NCBI RefSeq assembly: GCF_001570525.1 | Contig: NZ_BBXC01000013.1 | Location: forward strand, 248,001 to 312,000 | Source: Herbidospora sakaeratensis | GTDB lineage: Bacteria > Actinomycetota > Actinomycetes > Streptosporangiales > Streptosporangiaceae | Reading direction: 5' to 3' | Length of the DNA: 64,000 nucleotides | Shown here: in pieces, positions 47,461 to 52,649 of the stretch | Layout: each line of letters begins with the position of its first letter | Numbering within the stretch: the first letter of the stretch is position 1 | The notes under the pieces: model-generated | Told to the model about the DNA's origin: nothing | Databases searched by the model: none | The model's input: only the letters and a program-made list of their open reading frames with translations | Program-made: the position numbers and the translations under genes

Positions 47461-48152
47461 CCGCCACCGGCGTGCGCCGCGTCTTCGGCGGCACGACGGT
47501 CCTGGACGGCGTCGACCTGCGCATCGAGAAGGGCGAGGTCGTCGCCCTGCTGGGCGAGAGCGGCTCGGGCAAGAGCACGCTGCTGCGCATCCTGGCCGGC
47601 CTCGACGAGGAGGCCACCGGCGAGTTCACCACGTCCGGCTCCACGGCCGTGGTCTTCCAGGAGCACCGCCTGCTCCCGTGGAAGCGGGTGGCCGAGAACG
47701 TGGCCCTGGGCGTCCGCGGCGGCGACGCCCCCGACCGCACGGCGACCGCGCTGGAGGAGGTCGGCCTGGCCGACCGAGGCCGCGCGTGGCCGTCGGAGTT
47801 GTCCGGCGGCCAGAGCCAGCGGGTGGCCTTCGCCCGGGCGCTGGTACGCGAACCCGACCTGCTCCTGCTCGACGAGCCCTTCGGCGCGCTCGACGCCCTG
47901 ACCAGGCTGAAGATGCAGGCGCTGTTCGGCCGGCTCCGTGCCAGGCACGGCTTCGCGGCCCTGCTGGTGACGCATGACGTGGAGGAGGCGCTGCTCCTGT
48001 CGGACCGTCTCCTGGTACTGGACCGGGGACGCATCGCCGAGGAGATCGAGGTGGACCTGGGCCGTCCCCGCGCGGTCGACGTGCCCGGCTTCAACGAACT
48101 GCGCCGCCGCCTCTTGGCGCTGCTCCACGTCCCGGCCGATCCGGAGGAGTAG
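47433..48152 (+). CDS. ssuB: Sulfonate-type ABC transporter ATP-binding protein
   Basis: A 239-aa ATPase with all motifs: Walker A GESGSGKST, Q-loop VFQEHRLLPW, signature LSGGQSQRVA, Walker B LLLLDEPFGALD and H-loop VTHDVEEA. ATG 47433 has GAGAGGAG upstream and lies 28 nt inside the permease gene, so translation is coupled. No monooxygenase (SsuD) or flavin reductase gene follows, so use of the imported sulfonate would depend on genes elsewhere. Confidence 0.9.
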   Translation: MASRPEGVVTATGVRRVFGGTTVLDGVDLRIEKGEVVALLGESGSGKSTLLRILAGLDEEATGEFTTSGSTAVVFQEHRLLPWKRVAENVALGVRGGDAPDRTATALEEVGLADRGRAWPSELSGGQSQRVAFARALVREPDLLLLDEPFGALDALTRLKMQALFGRLRARHGFAALLVTHDVEEALLLSDRLLVLDRGRIAEEIEVDLGRPRAVDVPGFNELRRRLLALLHVPADPEE

Positions 48153-48303
48153 CCCCTCGGGTCAGCGCCGCGCGCAGCTCGGCGAAGGCGGCGACGACGG
48201 GCAGAAAGGCACGCAGCAGATCGGCCAACGCGGCGGGGAGCCGGACGGCCGTGTGGAGGACGAGGGTGAGGGCGCCGATGGCCGCCAGGATCGTCGTGGT
48301 CAT
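48091..48303 (-). CDS. Small membrane protein, overlapping the ssuB end antisense
   Basis: A possible 70-aa protein: one or two hydrophobic stretches (TTTILAAIGALTLVLHTAV, LADLLRAFLPVVAAFAEL) followed by a Pro/Arg/Gly-rich tail. Its last 62 bp lie antisense inside ssuB. It starts at ATG 48303, divergent from the large repeat NTPase gene (119 bp between first codons). Amphipathic composition and position argue for a real gene, but coding is unproven. Confidence 0.45.
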   Translation of the reverse strand: MTTTILAAIGALTLVLHTAVRLPAALADLLRAFLPVVAAFAELRAALTRGATPPDRPGRGAAPRGGGAVR

Positions 48304-48427
48304 GCCGTCAACCTTCGGGCCGCCGGTGCGTTCGGTGCATCCGGTGGCCCGAAGTCGGGTGAAACGGCCGGTCAGGGTGGCGGTTCGGGGTTAGGCTCCG
48401 AACAGCGTCGAATGCCGAGGGGTGATC

Positions 48428-51424
48428 GTGGTCGACCCCCGGGCCATCCGGACCCGCGCCGATCTGCATACGGCCCTGGAGCAGCTGTTCCACGCGGACG
48501 GTCGTTCCTACCTGGCGCTGGCCGGCGCCGCGGGCGTCGGCAACTCGACCCTGCACGGCACGGTCAACGGCACCACCTTCCCCAACTGGCCCACCCTCGC
48601 GAAGGTGCTCACCGCATGCGGTGTCCACGCTCAGGCCGGATGGAAACAGGCGCACGCCCGAGCCCGCGCCGATCAGCCCGGCCGGCCGATCCAGGCGGAC
48701 CTGCCGTTCGCCCCGCCGCTGGATCAGGTGACCGACCCGTTCGAGCACCAACTGGAAGTCCACCGCGCCATCCGGGCCACGACCGGGGCCACCACGGCGT
48801 CGGGCGAGCTGCCGCCGCTTCCGGCGTATGTGCCCCGTGCGCACGATCGGGTGCTCGGCGAGGTGGTGGCGCGGGCCGCCGCGGGGAGCAGCCAGATCGC
48901 GGTGCTGGTCGGCGGGTCCTCCACCGGCAAGACGCGCGCCTGCTGGGAAGCCCTGCACCCGCTGCGTGCCCAGCCGCCGGAACGCCGGTGGCGGTTGTGG
49001 CATCCGATCGATCCCACCCGGCCGGACGCGGCGCTGGCCGACCTGGCGCGGATCGGGCCGTACACCGTGGTGTGGCTGAACGAAGCCCAGTTCTACCTGG
49101 CCGACCCGACCCTGGGTGAACGGGTCGGCGCCGGGCTACGGGAACTGCTGCGCGATTCGGCGCGGGCGCCGGTGCTGCTGCTGGCCACGTTGTGGCCCAA
49201 GTACTGGGACACGTTGACGACTCGTACCGACCCCGACGTGCACGCGCACGCCCGGGAACTGCTGACCGGGCGCAAGATCAGCGTGGTGGAGCAGTTCACC
49301 GCGACCGACCTGCGGGCGATGGCCCAGCAGGCCGATCCCCGCCTGCGGGAAGCCGCCGAGCGCGCCCGCGATGATCGCATCACCCAATACCTGGCCGGGG
49401 TGCCCGTCCTCATGGACCGCTACGAGCAGGCCCCGCCCGCCGCCAAGGCACTGATCCATGTCGCGATGGACGCCCGCCGCCTCGGCGCGGGGCCGCACCT
49501 GCCGTTGGCGCTGCTGGCTGACGCCGCTCCCGCCTACCTGACCGACACCCAGTGGAACCAGACCGGCGACGACTGGCTGCGACAGGCCCTCGACTACGTC
49601 GCCACCCCGTGCAACGGCATCCCCGGCATCCTCACCGCCGTCAAGACCGGCGCTCCCCGCAACCAGCGGCGCCGCCCGGACACCACCGGCGGCGCTGCCG
49701 GGCCGCTCTTCCGCCTGGCCGACTACCTCGACCAGCAGGGGCGACGCCACCGTGCCCATCAGATCCCGCCCATCGGCTTCTGGACGGCCGTCGCCGCCCA
49801 CGCTCACCCCGGTGACCTGAAAGCCCTGGGGGACGCCGCCTGGGCCAGGGGGCTGTACCGGGATGCCGTCCACCTCCACCAGAACGCCACCACTCACGGC
49901 GACACCGAAGCAGCCGTCGCCCTGGTCGCCCATCTGCACACCCTGCGACCGGGAGACCGCCGCCCCGCCCACCACGCCGCCGAACATGCCGCACTCGACG
50001 ACCCGCGGGCCGTGATCCGGTTGTTGAACCAGTTGCGCGACGTGGGAGCGCACGAGCAGGCCGCCGCCTTGCTCGCCCGTGACCCCGCCGCCCACGCCGC
50101 CCTCGACAATCCGGGCGTTGTGGCGCAACTTCTGGAGCGGCTGCGGAAACGGGAAACGCACGGGCAGACCGCCGTGCTGGCGGAACGGGCCGCCGCTCAC
50201 GCCGCTCTCGACCGCCCGGGGGCGGTGGCCCGATTGCTGAAGGCACTGGGCAGGCCGCCGTCACGTGAACATGCCGCCGTGCTGGCCGAACGGGCCGCCG
50301 TACACGCCGCACTGGACAACCCCGGTGCCGTCGCCGACCTGCTGGAGCGCCTGCGCAGGATGGGAGCGCACGACCAGGCTTCCCGGCTGGCCGAACGGGC
50401 CGCCGCCCACATCGCCCTCGACCGACCAGGCGCCGTGGCAGAGTTCCTTGGTCAACTCCGCAAGATGGGGGCGCACAGGCAAGCCGGCATGCTGCTGGCC
50501 CGTGAGCCCGGCGCTCACGCCACCCTCGACGACCTGCGCGCCGTGACGAGACTGCTCGACCGGCTGCGCAAGGACAGAGCAACGCAGGACCAAGCCGCCG
50601 TGCTGGCCGAACGGGCTGCCGTGGACGCCCCGCTGGACGACCCAGGCGCCGTCGCCGACCTGCTGGAGCGGCTGAGCAGGATGGGAGCGCACGACCAGGC
50701 TTCCCGGCTGGCCGAACGGGCCGCCGCCCACGTCACCCTCGACCATCCAGGCGCCGTGACAGCGCTGCTGAACCGGCTCCGCAAGATGGGCGTGCACGAG
50801 CGACTGGCGGCAAACCCTGCGGCCCTGGACGACCCCGGCGCCGTGGCGCGACTGCTGGCTCGGCTGGACAGGATGGGAGCGCAGGAGCAGGTCACCGCGT
50901 TGCTGGCCTGTGACCCCGCCGCCAATGTCGCCCTCGACGACCCCGGTGCCGTGGCAGGGCTGCTGAAGCTGCTGGGCGGAATCGGAGCGCACGACCAGGC
51001 CGCCGCACTGGCCGACCGGGTGGTCGCCCACATCCTCCTGAACCGACCGCACGATGCGCTGAGGCTGGTGCGGGCGCTGGGGGCGGCGGGGGCCCACGAC
51101 CAGCTCTTGGAGCTGGCCAAGCGAGCCGCCGCCCAGCCTCAGGACAGCTCGTCCGGGCTGGGGGAGGAGCAACTCGCGGTGGTGCTGACCCGTGAGCCCA
51201 CCGCCCCCGTTCCCTCGAAAAACGCGGACGCCGTGGCCCTCCTCATGAAGGTGCTGCGGGAGGCGGGCGCGCACGATCAGCTCACTGCGCTGGTCGCACG
51301 GCTGCCCGCCGCAGGACGCTTCGCGACGTTCCTCGACGTCGGAGACCACCGGGAACGGTTCAGGTTCGGACGTGAGCCCGACGGAAGCGCCGCCGCGCCG
51401 TGGTCGTGGGAAGACCTGGACTGA
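48428..51424 (+). CDS. HTH / P-loop NTPase protein with about twelve 35-aa C-terminal repeats
   Basis: A 998-aa cytoplasmic protein. Residues about 1-80 resemble the helical XRE-like N-terminus of large actinomycete signalling proteins (IRTRADLHTALEQLF, LAGAAGVGNSTLHGTVNG). Residues about 130-430 form a P-loop domain with Walker A GGSSTGKT (162-169) and a Walker B-like VVWLNEA (214-220). Residues about 515-963 are tandem helical repeats of about 35 aa built on ALDDPGAVA-LL-LR-MGAHDQAA-LAERAAAH. The order sensor/NTPase/repeat resembles STAND ATPases, where repeats sense a ligand (family knowledge), but the WD40 or TPR usual there are absent. GTG 48428 has GAGGGG 5 nt upstream; an earlier GTG at 48422 sits on that sequence. 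Function unknown. Confidence 0.8.
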   Translation: MVDPRAIRTRADLHTALEQLFHADGRSYLALAGAAGVGNSTLHGTVNGTTFPNWPTLAKVLTACGVHAQAGWKQAHARARADQPGRPIQADLPFAPPLDQVTDPFEHQLEVHRAIRATTGATTASGELPPLPAYVPRAHDRVLGEVVARAAAGSSQIAVLVGGSSTGKTRACWEALHPLRAQPPERRWRLWHPIDPTRPDAALADLARIGPYTVVWLNEAQFYLADPTLGERVGAGLRELLRDSARAPVLLLATLWPKYWDTLTTRTDPDVHAHARELLTGRKISVVEQFTATDLRAMAQQADPRLREAAERARDDRITQYLAGVPVLMDRYEQAPPAAKALIHVAMDARRLGAGPHLPLALLADAAPAYLTDTQWNQTGDDWLRQALDYVATPCNGIPGILTAVKTGAPRNQRRRPDTTGGAAGPLFRLADYLDQQGRRHRAHQIPPIGFWTAVAAHAHPGDLKALGDAAWARGLYRDAVHLHQNATTHGDTEAAVALVAHLHTLRPGDRRPAHHAAEHAALDDPRAVIRLLNQLRDVGAHEQAAALLARDPAAHAALDNPGVVAQLLERLRKRETHGQTAVLAERAAAHAALDRPGAVARLLKALGRPPSREHAAVLAERAAVHAALDNPGAVADLLERLRRMGAHDQASRLAERAAAHIALDRPGAVAEFLGQLRKMGAHRQAGMLLAREPGAHATLDDLRAVTRLLDRLRKDRATQDQAAVLAERAAVDAPLDDPGAVADLLERLSRMGAHDQASRLAERAAAHVTLDHPGAVTALLNRLRKMGVHERLAANPAALDDPGAVARLLARLDRMGAQEQVTALLACDPAANVALDDPGAVAGLLKLLGGIGAHDQAAALADRVVAHILLNRPHDALRLVRALGAAGAHDQLLELAKRAAAQPQDSSSGLGEEQLAVVLTREPTAPVPSKNADAVALLMKVLREAGAHDQLTALVARLPAAGRFATFLDVGDHRERFRFGREPDGSAAAPWSWEDLD
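49970..51316 (+). repeat. Tandem ~105-bp coding repeats with a recent 321-bp duplication
   Basis: About twelve units of 34-36 codons. The stretch starting at 50281 and the one starting at 50602 (offset 321 bp, three units) are almost identical over 130 bp or more, including an unbroken shared run around ATGGGAGCGCACGACCAGGC. This points to recent duplication inside the gene. Confidence 0.85.
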
Positions 51425-51619
51425 TCCACCCGCGTGGTCGACCGCGCTGCGAGGCTGGTGACCTCGAAGAGCCGAGGCCGCGAATCGTCCTCCGCAGGGG
51501 TCCCACGAGTTCGAGGAGGTGAGACGCACCCATAGATGAGGTCCGCGCTTCACAGCCGTTTCTGAGACCGGCCCCCGTGGAGTTATCGGGCGAACTGAGC
51601 TACTTGGTATGAGATGTCT

Positions 51620-51638
51620 ATATACGGTCGATATACGG
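51620..51638 (+). repeat. Short direct repeat in a promoter region
   Basis: ATATACGG occurs at 51620-51627 and 51631-51638, an 11-bp period, in an AT-rich patch 48-66 bp upstream of the secreted-protein start. It may be a regulator half-site pair. Confidence 0.35.
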
Positions 51639-51685
51639 CGTTCTCTTATGTTGGCGATGACTTCTCAACGAGATCGGAGATTGAT

Positions 51686-52111
51686 ATGTCACGCCGATGG
51701 AGTCGCCTGTTCGCGGCCGTCGCACTGGGGGCCGCCGTCGTGGTGCCCTTGGCGCCTGCCCAGGTCGCCTATGGTGGCGTCTTCGACGGGGACGTCACCA
51801 ACCGGCTCCCCTCCAGCTACACCGTCAAGGTCGCGACGTTCACTCCGCCGAACTTGCCGGAGACGTGCGTGCTGAACACGGGAGAGAGTGTGCGGTGCCG
51901 CACCTACTGGCTGCCGTCCGGCAGGGCGGATGATCAGATCAACGGCACGAACTGGGACACCGATGCGCTGATGGTGGAGTCGAACTACCGGTTGTACAAG
52001 ATCAACGGCTCGTACATCAACATCCCGGCATTCCGTTGGTACAAGATCCTCAGCGGCGACAACCGGACCTGTGAACTGACGTCGAACGTCCCGGCCTGCT
52101 TCCCTCGATGA
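51686..52111 (+). CDS. Small secreted protein of unknown function
   Basis: A 141-aa exported protein: signal peptide SRLFAAVALGAAVVVPLAPAQVAYG to about residue 30, then a mature part of about 110 residues with four Cys (ETCVLNTGESVRCRTYW; NRTCELTSNVPACFPR), likely two disulfides. A GGAG lies 6 nt before ATG 51686; an in-frame ATG at 51614 would add 24 residues without signal character. No known domain. Its short, Cys-paired and Trp/Tyr-rich form suits an extracellular effector, inhibitor or surface factor. Confidence 0.7.
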   Translation: MSRRWSRLFAAVALGAAVVVPLAPAQVAYGGVFDGDVTNRLPSSYTVKVATFTPPNLPETCVLNTGESVRCRTYWLPSGRADDQINGTNWDTDALMVESNYRLYKINGSYINIPAFRWYKILSGDNRTCELTSNVPACFPR

Positions 52112-52649
52112 GGACTCGTCCACACCCAGCCGAGAGAGGGACGCGGGCATCTCGCGATTTCTCACCGCTCCCGCGACGGATTCGTTCCACGAGCGGGAGC
52201 ATGCCAACGGCCACTCTCCAGACTTGGTCGTCCGGCCGGACACTGGGTGGGGATCGCCCTGCACTGGCCCGACACCGCCCTTGGAAGAGCGGGCGCGCGG
52301 TGCGTCCTCAGCGGTTAAGGGTGCCCGTCTCTGGCGAGACGACACGATTCGCAATGTCGGCTTCGAATGGAGAAACGGGCACCAACCAGACTCGGTAAAG
52401 GCGGTATGGCCATGAGGCTGAGAGCTGGACGCGTGCGATTTTCATCAGGCCGATAGAAATGGCATGCGTGGGCTCTCGGCACCCAGGCTCAGTGGATCTG
52501 GCACCGTGACCGAGGCGGGTGCAGTGATGTCAATGGCCCGGCCGGATCGTGTTCTGGGAGATGGAGAAGAACGCGGGGGCGTGCCGGAGTCGGATCGGGT
52601 CACCGACAGTGACGCGCACGCCAGCCGCCCCGCGTCGACGTCAACCCGG
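52112..52649. other. Intergenic region, no gene seen
   Basis: 538 bp between convergent genes. Open frames present are short and lack codon bias; no hairpin or repeat of note was found. Confidence 0.5.

Follow-up and report, generated by a model that had tools for sequence, protein, structure and literature searches.

What does a large sensor protein of the STAND (signal transduction ATPase with numerous domains) class do when a short membrane-protein gene lies divergently right beside its own? We addressed this question for a locus of the soil actinomycete Herbidospora sakaeratensis (contig NZ_BBXC01000013.1, positions 248,001 to 312,000 of the forward strand; these 64,000 nucleotides are called the window, and positions below are counted within it). 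A first-pass annotation had proposed a STAND/NLR-like sensor with a helix-turn-helix (HTH)-like N-terminus, a P-loop domain, and twelve repeats of an unfamiliar kind, and had paired its gene with a small divergent membrane open reading frame (ORF) given without coordinates. This ORF is real, and comparison with relatives gives good support to a two-gene module of STAND gene and small membrane gene. The small gene is a stronger and more informative find than the repeat array. The pair and the DNA between them are as follows.

48091..48303, minus strand: small membrane-protein ORF of family S1, 70 amino acids, divergent from the STAND gene and with a coding signature.
48304..48427, no strand: intergenic DNA between the divergent genes, containing five half-sites TTCGG/CCGAA (at 48314, 48331, 48349, 48384, and 48398), from motif count and alignment.
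48428..51424, plus strand: STAND-type sensor gene, ~998 amino acids, consisting of HTH, nucleoside triphosphatase (NTPase)/winged helix, and TPR-like superhelix of 35-residue repeats, from the ORF and comparison of its start with relatives.

We compared 86 loci, namely 80 loci from genome and viral contigs (L033–L112), five plasmid loci (L009–L013), and the window. Small membrane-protein genes at these loci were grouped into four families, S1 to S4, defined by iterated profiles that were seeded from the same loci and applied to a zone of 2.5 kb upstream. In the window copy, the part common to relatives is 48154–48303, encoding the first 50 amino acids (MTTTILAAIGALTLVLHTAVRLPAALADLLRAFLPVVAAFAELRAALTRG); it stops at the end of an ABC-transporter block conserved in congeners (48152–48174), and the last 20 codons, from this junction on, are unshared. 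Divergent S1 counterparts occur at L040 (88%), L081 (86%), and L044 (78%), and a non-divergent one on a Nocardia plasmid (L012, 40%), where the small gene is on the same strand as its own STAND gene. Among four S1 loci, pairwise nonsynonymous divergence (dN) is 0.074–0.137 and synonymous divergence (dS) 0.342–0.484 (ratio 0.15–0.37), with 45, 10, and 91 differences at the first, second, and third codon positions; the corresponding numbers for 18 S2 loci are 2560, 1490, and 3758. Judged from these substitutions, the small genes are coding and S1 is under purifying selection in relatives. Five example proteins are partly hydrophobic and carry a net charge of +2 to +6. For eight S1–S4 proteins and the small protein of L013, all Pfam and NCBIfam models stay below cut-off, and EACC1, a model presumably present in the Pfam copy scanned, is absent from their Pfam matches at E≤1.

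The small genes are linked to HTH heads. HTH heads of several types, read from translations and in many cases called by eye, occur in 68/86 loci; L052 is counted here, with a damaged head that no head profile matches. A member of S1–S4 occurs at 57/86 loci (S1, 5; S2, 20; S3, 26; S4, 6), always upstream within 2.5 kb and always divergent except at L012. These 57 are all among the 68 HTH-headed loci, as against 0 of 17 testable non-HTH loci (Fisher exact p 6.7e-11, a value that describes association and not independent prediction, because the profiles were seeded from the same loci). L107 was excluded from the non-HTH group, as it has only ~430 bp of upstream DNA. A loose search by hydrophobicity and GC content at third codon positions revealed another small membrane ORF at the same place, outside S1–S4, in three HTH-headed loci (L013, L078, and L085), and further families probably exist. 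The same search gave unconvincing candidates at two HTH-headed loci (L051 and L074) and two non-HTH loci (L067 and L110). At L080/L143, which has a non-HTH gene, a degenerate piece of S1 is found ~5 kb away from that gene, beyond the 2.5-kb zone.

The linkage was also examined in reverse, with the S1, S2, and S4 profiles searched alone in 150 genomes of the host's family. S2 was found at 13 places in 12 genomes. Ten are divergent from a gene for the STAND core (by coordinates), two adjoin an HTH-NB-ARC-TPR protein (G022 and G125; NB-ARC 6.2e-06, above cut-off, for L159), and the weakest (G021, 4.2e-05) adjoins an unrelated gene. S4 was found at 10 places in 9 genomes, nine of them examined. 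Five adjoin this core (four by coordinates, plus L213), two an HTH-NB-ARC protein (L209, NB-ARC 1.2e-07; L212, 2.1e-10), and one each a short HTH-TPR protein (L210) and an HTH-DUF4913 protein (L211). S1 was found at 23 places in 12 genomes, 20 of them examined. Five adjoin this core and six adjoin other HTH-headed proteins: an HTH-NB-ARC-TPR protein (L197, NB-ARC 3.1e-06), an nSTAND1-WD40 protein (L201, 8.6e-104), an NB-ARC-WD40 protein (L202, 1.7e-15), L203, L208 at a contig end, and L169 (G087:C105). Among the strongest S1 places (E≤1e-20), an HTH neighbor is present in 6/7. The partner in L203 (570–2660) matches no Pfam family and by eye has an HTH head and a part recalling a CHAT-type peptidase. 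S1-type orphans or remnants without an HTH neighbor are seen in L196 (from ~5104) and L198–L200, several of them in one genome (G146).

Head profiles built from the STAND family confirm the heads of L169 (3.9e-41), L197 (2.2e-39), L212 (4e-33), and L209 (1.1e-13), and give weak support for L211 (6e-04), L208 (0.002), and L210 (0.04). They match none of L196, L198–L200, and L205–L207, and reach just 0.04 in L204; on 14 of the 18 non-HTH loci, they yield two weak matches, both in L072 (0.0025 and 0.035). Since the reverse searches reach HTH-headed STAND proteins with other NTPase types, the small gene follows the HTH head and not the type of NTPase, and the pairing proposed in the first-pass annotation is well supported by both the linkage counts and these searches. 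S2 gave no match in 396 genomes of the phylum, an empty answer that is uninformative in that search. S3 was found in 3/150 genomes of the order, and the single strong place adjoins a gene not read as a STAND gene.

The intergenic DNA of S2 loci contains 45 copies of TGGACA/TGTCCA in 4902 bp (9.18 per kb), spread over 16/18 loci, versus 128 (0.48 per kb) in the remaining 264,648 bp of these loci; the two NB-ARC loci with S2 have three and two copies. In the window, five TTCGG/CCGAA half-sites compare with an expected 0.59, and five were reached in 1/2000 shuffles, for a motif that was picked after inspecting the sequence. No TTCGG site occurs in the intergenic regions of L201, L202, and L203. 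The window intergenic region aligns with that of L197, an HTH-NB-ARC-TPR locus, at a score of 41 (500 shuffles: mean 10.3, maximum 20). Because these regions align, the small gene moves with its control region and the HTH head, at least in L197, and the STAND core is what changes. The HTH head likely binds DNA at the intergenic region. A candidate operator for S3 (CGATGAGT, 26 copies in 22/26 intergenic regions) was set aside, being mostly start-codon context of the large gene.

The large gene was placed by first-pass annotation at 48428..51424, and this extent fits best. The ORF (48422–51424, plus strand) is open across 1000 codons; we take GTG 48428 as the start because it is preceded by GAGGGG and lines up with the ATG of relatives, and the stop is at 51424. 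Its GC content is ~70–73%, the same as that of the window. The following features make up the head and core.

48455..48670, plus strand: XRE-like HTH, residues 12–83, five helices in the model; Pfam HTH_31 below cut-off.
48818..49696, plus strand: AAA+/STAND NTPase with the subsequent helical/winged-helix region, residues 133–425, from models and fold search.
48911..48937, plus strand: P-loop GGSSTGKTR, residues 164–172, with G, K, T, and R invariant in the 76-row core alignment.
49061..49084, plus strand: Walker-B-like strand YTVVWLNE, in which Asn stands where Asp is usual; invariant W and N, with E in ≥90%.
49385..49411, plus strand: GxP-like motif QYLAGVPVL; Q, A, and G invariant, P in ≥90%.

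The claimed HTH-like N-terminus, P-loop (GGSSTGKT), and VVWLNEA motif are all borne out. Scanned alone, the N-terminus matches HTH_31 with E 1.3e-05 and 25.8 bits, slightly under the cut-off of 27, with two weaker matches besides; a SARP-type head, which would combine OmpR-type and BTA domains, was not found in this Pfam scan. The core, taken as residues ~99–515, has a mean column identity of 44% over 76 rows, across which the P-loop GKTR, WLN, and AG-x-P are kept. The Walker-B-like segment (VVWLNEAQ, residues 216–223) is a strand VVWL followed by N-E, in which N is invariant, E is present in at least 90% of the rows, and the usual Asp is absent. In AG-x-P, A and G are invariant and P occurs in at least 90%; we equated this motif by eye with GxP, the STAND motif of the helical domain.

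The core model (predicted local distance difference test score, 92.6) matches SAMD9 (1.1e-05), Cdc6/Orc1 (4.9e-05), Avs3 (1.4e-04), the plant NLR NRC3 (8.4e-04), and, more weakly, Apaf-1 (1.1e-03) and CED-4 (1.3e-03). The full model matches many TPR superhelices in Foldseek and a STAND-TPR protein (6mfv, 1.1e-04). Absences from these lists carry no weight as evidence. At the sequence level, every row of an 18-member core alignment matches AAA_16 at E≤10, with 4.6e-07 as the best value and 0.0059 for the window protein, and three of the 18 match nSTAND_NTPase5 (best 0.031). No Pfam NB-ARC, NACHT, or nSTAND model scores above cut-off for the core, and NB-ARC gives no match over the NTPase region, its weak matches (E 0.18 and 0.14) being confined to the HTH region, at residues 15–49. 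Sequence searches of solved structures gave no match with the window protein alone and just two sorbitol dehydrogenase sequences (E 0.1) with the 18-row profile; with 76 rows, they gave a designed TPR protein at E 0.0008 and then, at values above 0.1, other designed proteins as well as a Sel1 protein. The core is well supported, by modeled fold, as a STAND NTPase (AAA+ core plus winged helix) of an unnamed family outside Pfam NB-ARC. The model matches, the GxP-like motif, and the replacement of the head by Trypsin_2 and EAD1 in relatives sustain the STAND/NLR-like assignment made by first-pass annotation.

The three parts of these proteins, head, core, and array, vary independently among relatives. 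Besides HTH heads, there are Trypsin_2 heads (L067, 2.1e-08; L098, 1.9e-14), an EAD1 head (L087, 4.8e-11), membrane-segment heads (L042, L072, L038, L080, and L046), and a short strand-rich motif (L033, L034, L041, L043, L045, L107, and L110); L048, L053, and L108 have no recognized head. A Pfam scan of ten heads confirmed trypsin and EAD1 and gave no HTH match above cut-off in these ten. The arm that follows the core in the window protein has these features.

49808..49945, plus strand: first TPR-like hairpins, residues 463–508, from the core profile against designed TPR CTPR-rv4 (E 0.0008) and model helices.
49994..51313, plus strand: array of 12 repeats of ~35 amino acids, residues 525–964, from an iterated repeat profile and pairs of 13- and 14-residue helices in the model.
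51359..51421, plus strand: conserved C-terminal tail FRFGREPDGSAAAPWSWEDLD, from comparison of relatives' tails.

The iterated profile recovers the twelve repeats noted in the first pass; ten have 33–35 residues, one has 29, and one is partial with 30 (20.5 to 53.6 bits). In the model, 13- and 14-residue helices alternate with a period of 35 to form the superhelix of helix pairs that had been anticipated, and TPR proteins are among its Foldseek matches. Four or more of the 35-mers are present in 53/85 scanned proteins (658 repeats in those 53) and four or more TPR/Sel1-like repeats in 21/85; no protein has both kinds, and 11 belong to neither class. The two kinds of array often share a similar end, with the tail RFGxEPDGxxAxPW. 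Among 76 arrays scanned at E≤1, TPR_14 matches 24 (best 8.4e-24), Sel1 8 (3.5e-22), and TPR-S 6 (1.2e-13), while none of these models matches the window array. By the model, then, and because TPR/Sel1-like arrays replace the 35-mers at the same position in relatives, the repeats would be TPR-like in fold, new only in sequence and of no new fold class. The novelty claimed at first thus holds for sequence and fails for the modeled fold; equally, the array is not plainly an ordinary TPR or Sel1 array, since it matches neither profile. A sequence-level proof of TPR ancestry was dropped, as hhalign between 35-mers and the TPR-like repeats of relatives was not significant (probability 1.7%, P 0.029). 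One repeat (residues 765–798, 50714–50815) scores above cut-off with both NCBIfam Obg_CgtA_exten (3.4e-10) and Pfam DUF1967. We rejected a link to Obg because the match covers 34/70 profile positions in 1/12 repeats, inside a periodic array; other unrelated models (DnaG_DnaB_bind and DUF7922) also match arrays of relatives. Automatic annotation could nonetheless misname the gene 'Obg family GTPase' on account of this match to the Obg/CgtA C-terminal model.

These parts suggest a mechanism in which the STAND sensor would be a gated transcriptional switch for the membrane peptide, probably in defence, a reading to which we assign a probability of about 0.45. AfsR, which acts on afsS, is a precedent for a STAND protein that switches transcription (PMC10936776). 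The TPR-type superhelix would be the sensor arm, the AAA+/winged-helix core an ATP-driven switch, and the HTH head the output, acting on the divergent promoter region shared with the gene of the small cationic membrane peptide. In its resting state, the STAND protein would be an autoinhibited monomer, with the small gene silent or low. A trigger on the superhelix would lead to ATP-driven oligomerization, by which the HTH head would alter its occupancy of the intergenic sites. The membrane peptide, plausibly a membrane-active effector, would then be made and act on the cell's own membrane. The cell would be arrested or killed, most likely as a measure against phage or a different invading element. 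Anti-phage use is a guess from the distribution of the family and the EAD1 and protease heads of relatives.

Several observations weigh against this mechanism. Eleven of the 68 HTH-headed loci have no member of S1–S4 (L013, L051, L052, L074, L078, L085, L093, L094, L095, L097, and L111), and nine of the 20 S1 places that were examined lack a divergent neighbor with an HTH head, one of these being a broken S1 ~5 kb from a core gene. The five head profiles miss L201, L202, and L203, whose HTH heads are called by eye only, and the TTCGG motif was chosen post hoc. The S1 proteins of close relatives end in RRRRPS; the window copy has lost these conserved last residues at the junction and may be impaired. 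At L040 and L009, the small genes are intact. Between the window and L040, dN/dS is 0.75 for the HTH and 0.33 for the NTPase, which may mean relaxed constraint, and HTH domains can serve as protein-binding heads. First-pass annotation had suspected a sensing or defence system, and a survey of neighboring genes found no defence gene as a conserved neighbor across the 86 loci. PADLOC-DB has no model that matches the NTPase or sensor, and its single HTH match is weak (E 0.012) and falls within the repeats, at residues 742–825.

If the HTH were instead an adaptor for protein contacts, with the small membrane protein as its anchor or partner, contact between HTH and peptide would hold the STAND protein at the membrane or recruit it there. 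It would act at that place and control transcription at most by autoregulation. Membrane, EAD1, and trypsin-like heads do replace the HTH and come without a small gene, as if HTH and small protein together were a substitute for them. The TGGACA repeats of the S2 intergenic regions and the conservation of the S1 intergenic region between two STAND types speak for DNA recognition, and we consider an adaptor unlikely.

Similarly improbable, in our estimate, is a regulator of ordinary physiology resembling AfsR or MalT, which would sense metabolites or stress; its target, the small membrane protein, would then do housekeeping and not kill. The order HTH-STAND-TPR is compatible with it. AfsR (SARP-NOD-TPR) activates afsS and is, among those we came across, the nearest documented STAND protein with a defined target gene; MalT is named in the same paper (PMC10936776). 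The AfsR-AfsS pair of Streptomyces likewise combines a DNA-binding head, STAND core, TPR sensor, and defined target gene (PMC10936776); here the head is XRE-like HTH instead of SARP, and a divergent membrane peptide takes the place of AfsS as presumed target. The patchy presence of the family (44/150 genomes), its 85 plasmid records, the viral contig L112, its differing positions in congeners, and the EAD1 and trypsin heads of relatives fit conflict genes better.

A toxin-antitoxin-like selfish pair, in which the HTH-STAND protein represses a membrane toxin and addiction keeps the pair on mobile DNA, appears distinctly improbable. Small cationic hydrophobic peptides, an HTH with repeated sites, and the plasmid records would suit it, but a 1000-amino acid STAND protein with a long sensor array far exceeds the needs of an antitoxin, and S1 copies without an HTH neighbor exist. 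That the STAND gene is a solitary TPR regulator beside an incidental antisense-like ORF, of which many arise in high-GC DNA, can be given hardly any credence in view of the purifying selection, third-position substitutions, near-constant divergent placement, and absence of small genes beside the 17 testable non-HTH heads.

Several known systems come close to this one. Apaf-1, SAMD9, Avs3, NRC3, and archaeal 6mfv likewise have an AAA+-type P-loop core, a winged-helix region, a repeat sensor arm, and an exchangeable head; the window protein differs from these STAND/NLR NTPases in matching no Pfam NB-ARC, NACHT, or nSTAND model above cut-off, and in its Walker-B Asn, 35-residue array, and divergent membrane-peptide gene. 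The conflict systems of Kaur 2020 (EAD1, EACC1, TPR-S, and trypsin-like heads; PMC7159879) share the EAD1 and Trypsin_2 heads, TPR-S (in 6/76 arrays), actinomycete bias, and a membrane-linked two-gene logic, the nearest of that kind. They differ in that the small proteins here are not EACC1 by Pfam, there is no caspase, and gene order is divergent and not 5'-3' (PMC7159879). The HTH-NB-ARC-TPR and WD40-bearing STAND proteins of actinomycetes (L159, L197, L209, L212, L201, and L202) also have divergent S1, S2, or S4 genes, and L197, L209, and L212 among them have head types in common with the window family; they differ in their Pfam-recognized cores (NB-ARC and nSTAND1) and sensor repeats, and for L201 and L202 the HTH assignment was made solely by eye.

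Of 150 genomes drawn from the host's family, 44 contain a relative at E≤1e-20, the host genome included. Among 72,556 plasmid records, 85 have one at E≤1e-5, and 74 of those records are from Streptomyces. Plasmid records label them 'hypothetical protein' or 'helix-turn-helix', and one on a Streptomyces virginiae plasmid (L010, 667–5742) adjoins a type I-E CRISPR-Cas operon. No match was found in 50,697 phage records. In IMG/VR, four places passed tblastn, the close relative being L112 (67%) and the other three being at 21%; the L112 contig contains both a STAND relative and an S2 gene. A scan of genome contigs gave 402 coding places, from which 79 loci were retained, all from actinomycetes, to judge by their titles, except for one metagenome bin labeled Bacillota. 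Almost the whole core is in a single open frame in 75/80 loci (L033–L112). Among named organisms of the genome collection, Herbidospora galbida has the closest relative, with 84% in the best core segment. The host's own genome has a second, broken STAND copy in several frames (G000:C7:196590-198817, L144), with no S1–S4 gene in the surrounding 19 kb.

The genomic setting of the module differs among congeners, as described by one further feature.

48155..51451, no strand: block found elsewhere in a congener, with the window flanks unlinked in both congeners that have both, from synteny comparison.

The ABC-transporter block on the left is conserved in congeners, as is an endonuclease-like block on the right; in G083 and G149, the two congeners that have both, the blocks are on separate contigs, each >18 kb from a contig end. 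Synteny breaks at both ends of the interval (~48152–48174 and ~52583–52648), and the block has 80% and 85% DNA identity in two parts to its counterpart, which a further congener carries elsewhere. No gene cluster other than the query family itself is a repeated neighbor in more than 5/86 loci. A 165-amino acid protein encoded downstream (51614–52111, plus strand; signal-peptide-like start by eye) was rejected as a partner, being present in 2/7 genomes of the genus, the host's own included.

Known bacterial NLR-like defence proteins mostly have the effector fused to the sensor. MalT works as a STAND protein that switches transcription, and AfsS is a small protein. We tentatively propose, at clearly less than even odds, an actinomycete class of NLR-like receptors that would signal by transcription, in which swappable STAND cores (the unnamed core, NB-ARC, or nSTAND1) and sensors (35-mer, TPR, or WD40) are set on an HTH head, with a divergent membrane peptide of 40–60 amino acids as dedicated output. 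Head, intergenic region, and peptide would together be a portable output cartridge and correspond to the protease, EAD, and transmembrane heads that are fused in other members. A divergent membrane-peptide gene tied to HTH-headed STAND proteins of several kinds looks undescribed; our searches of an open-licence library showed no report of such a pairing, which does not prove its absence. If true, a receptor that gates a divergent membrane-peptide gene, its cartridge reused on several STAND types, would link MalT, AfsR, and similar STAND transcription factors to the STAND immune receptors. Four small-protein families without a Pfam or NCBIfam model would get testable names, and the plasmid relatives now called 'hypothetical protein' would get a reading.

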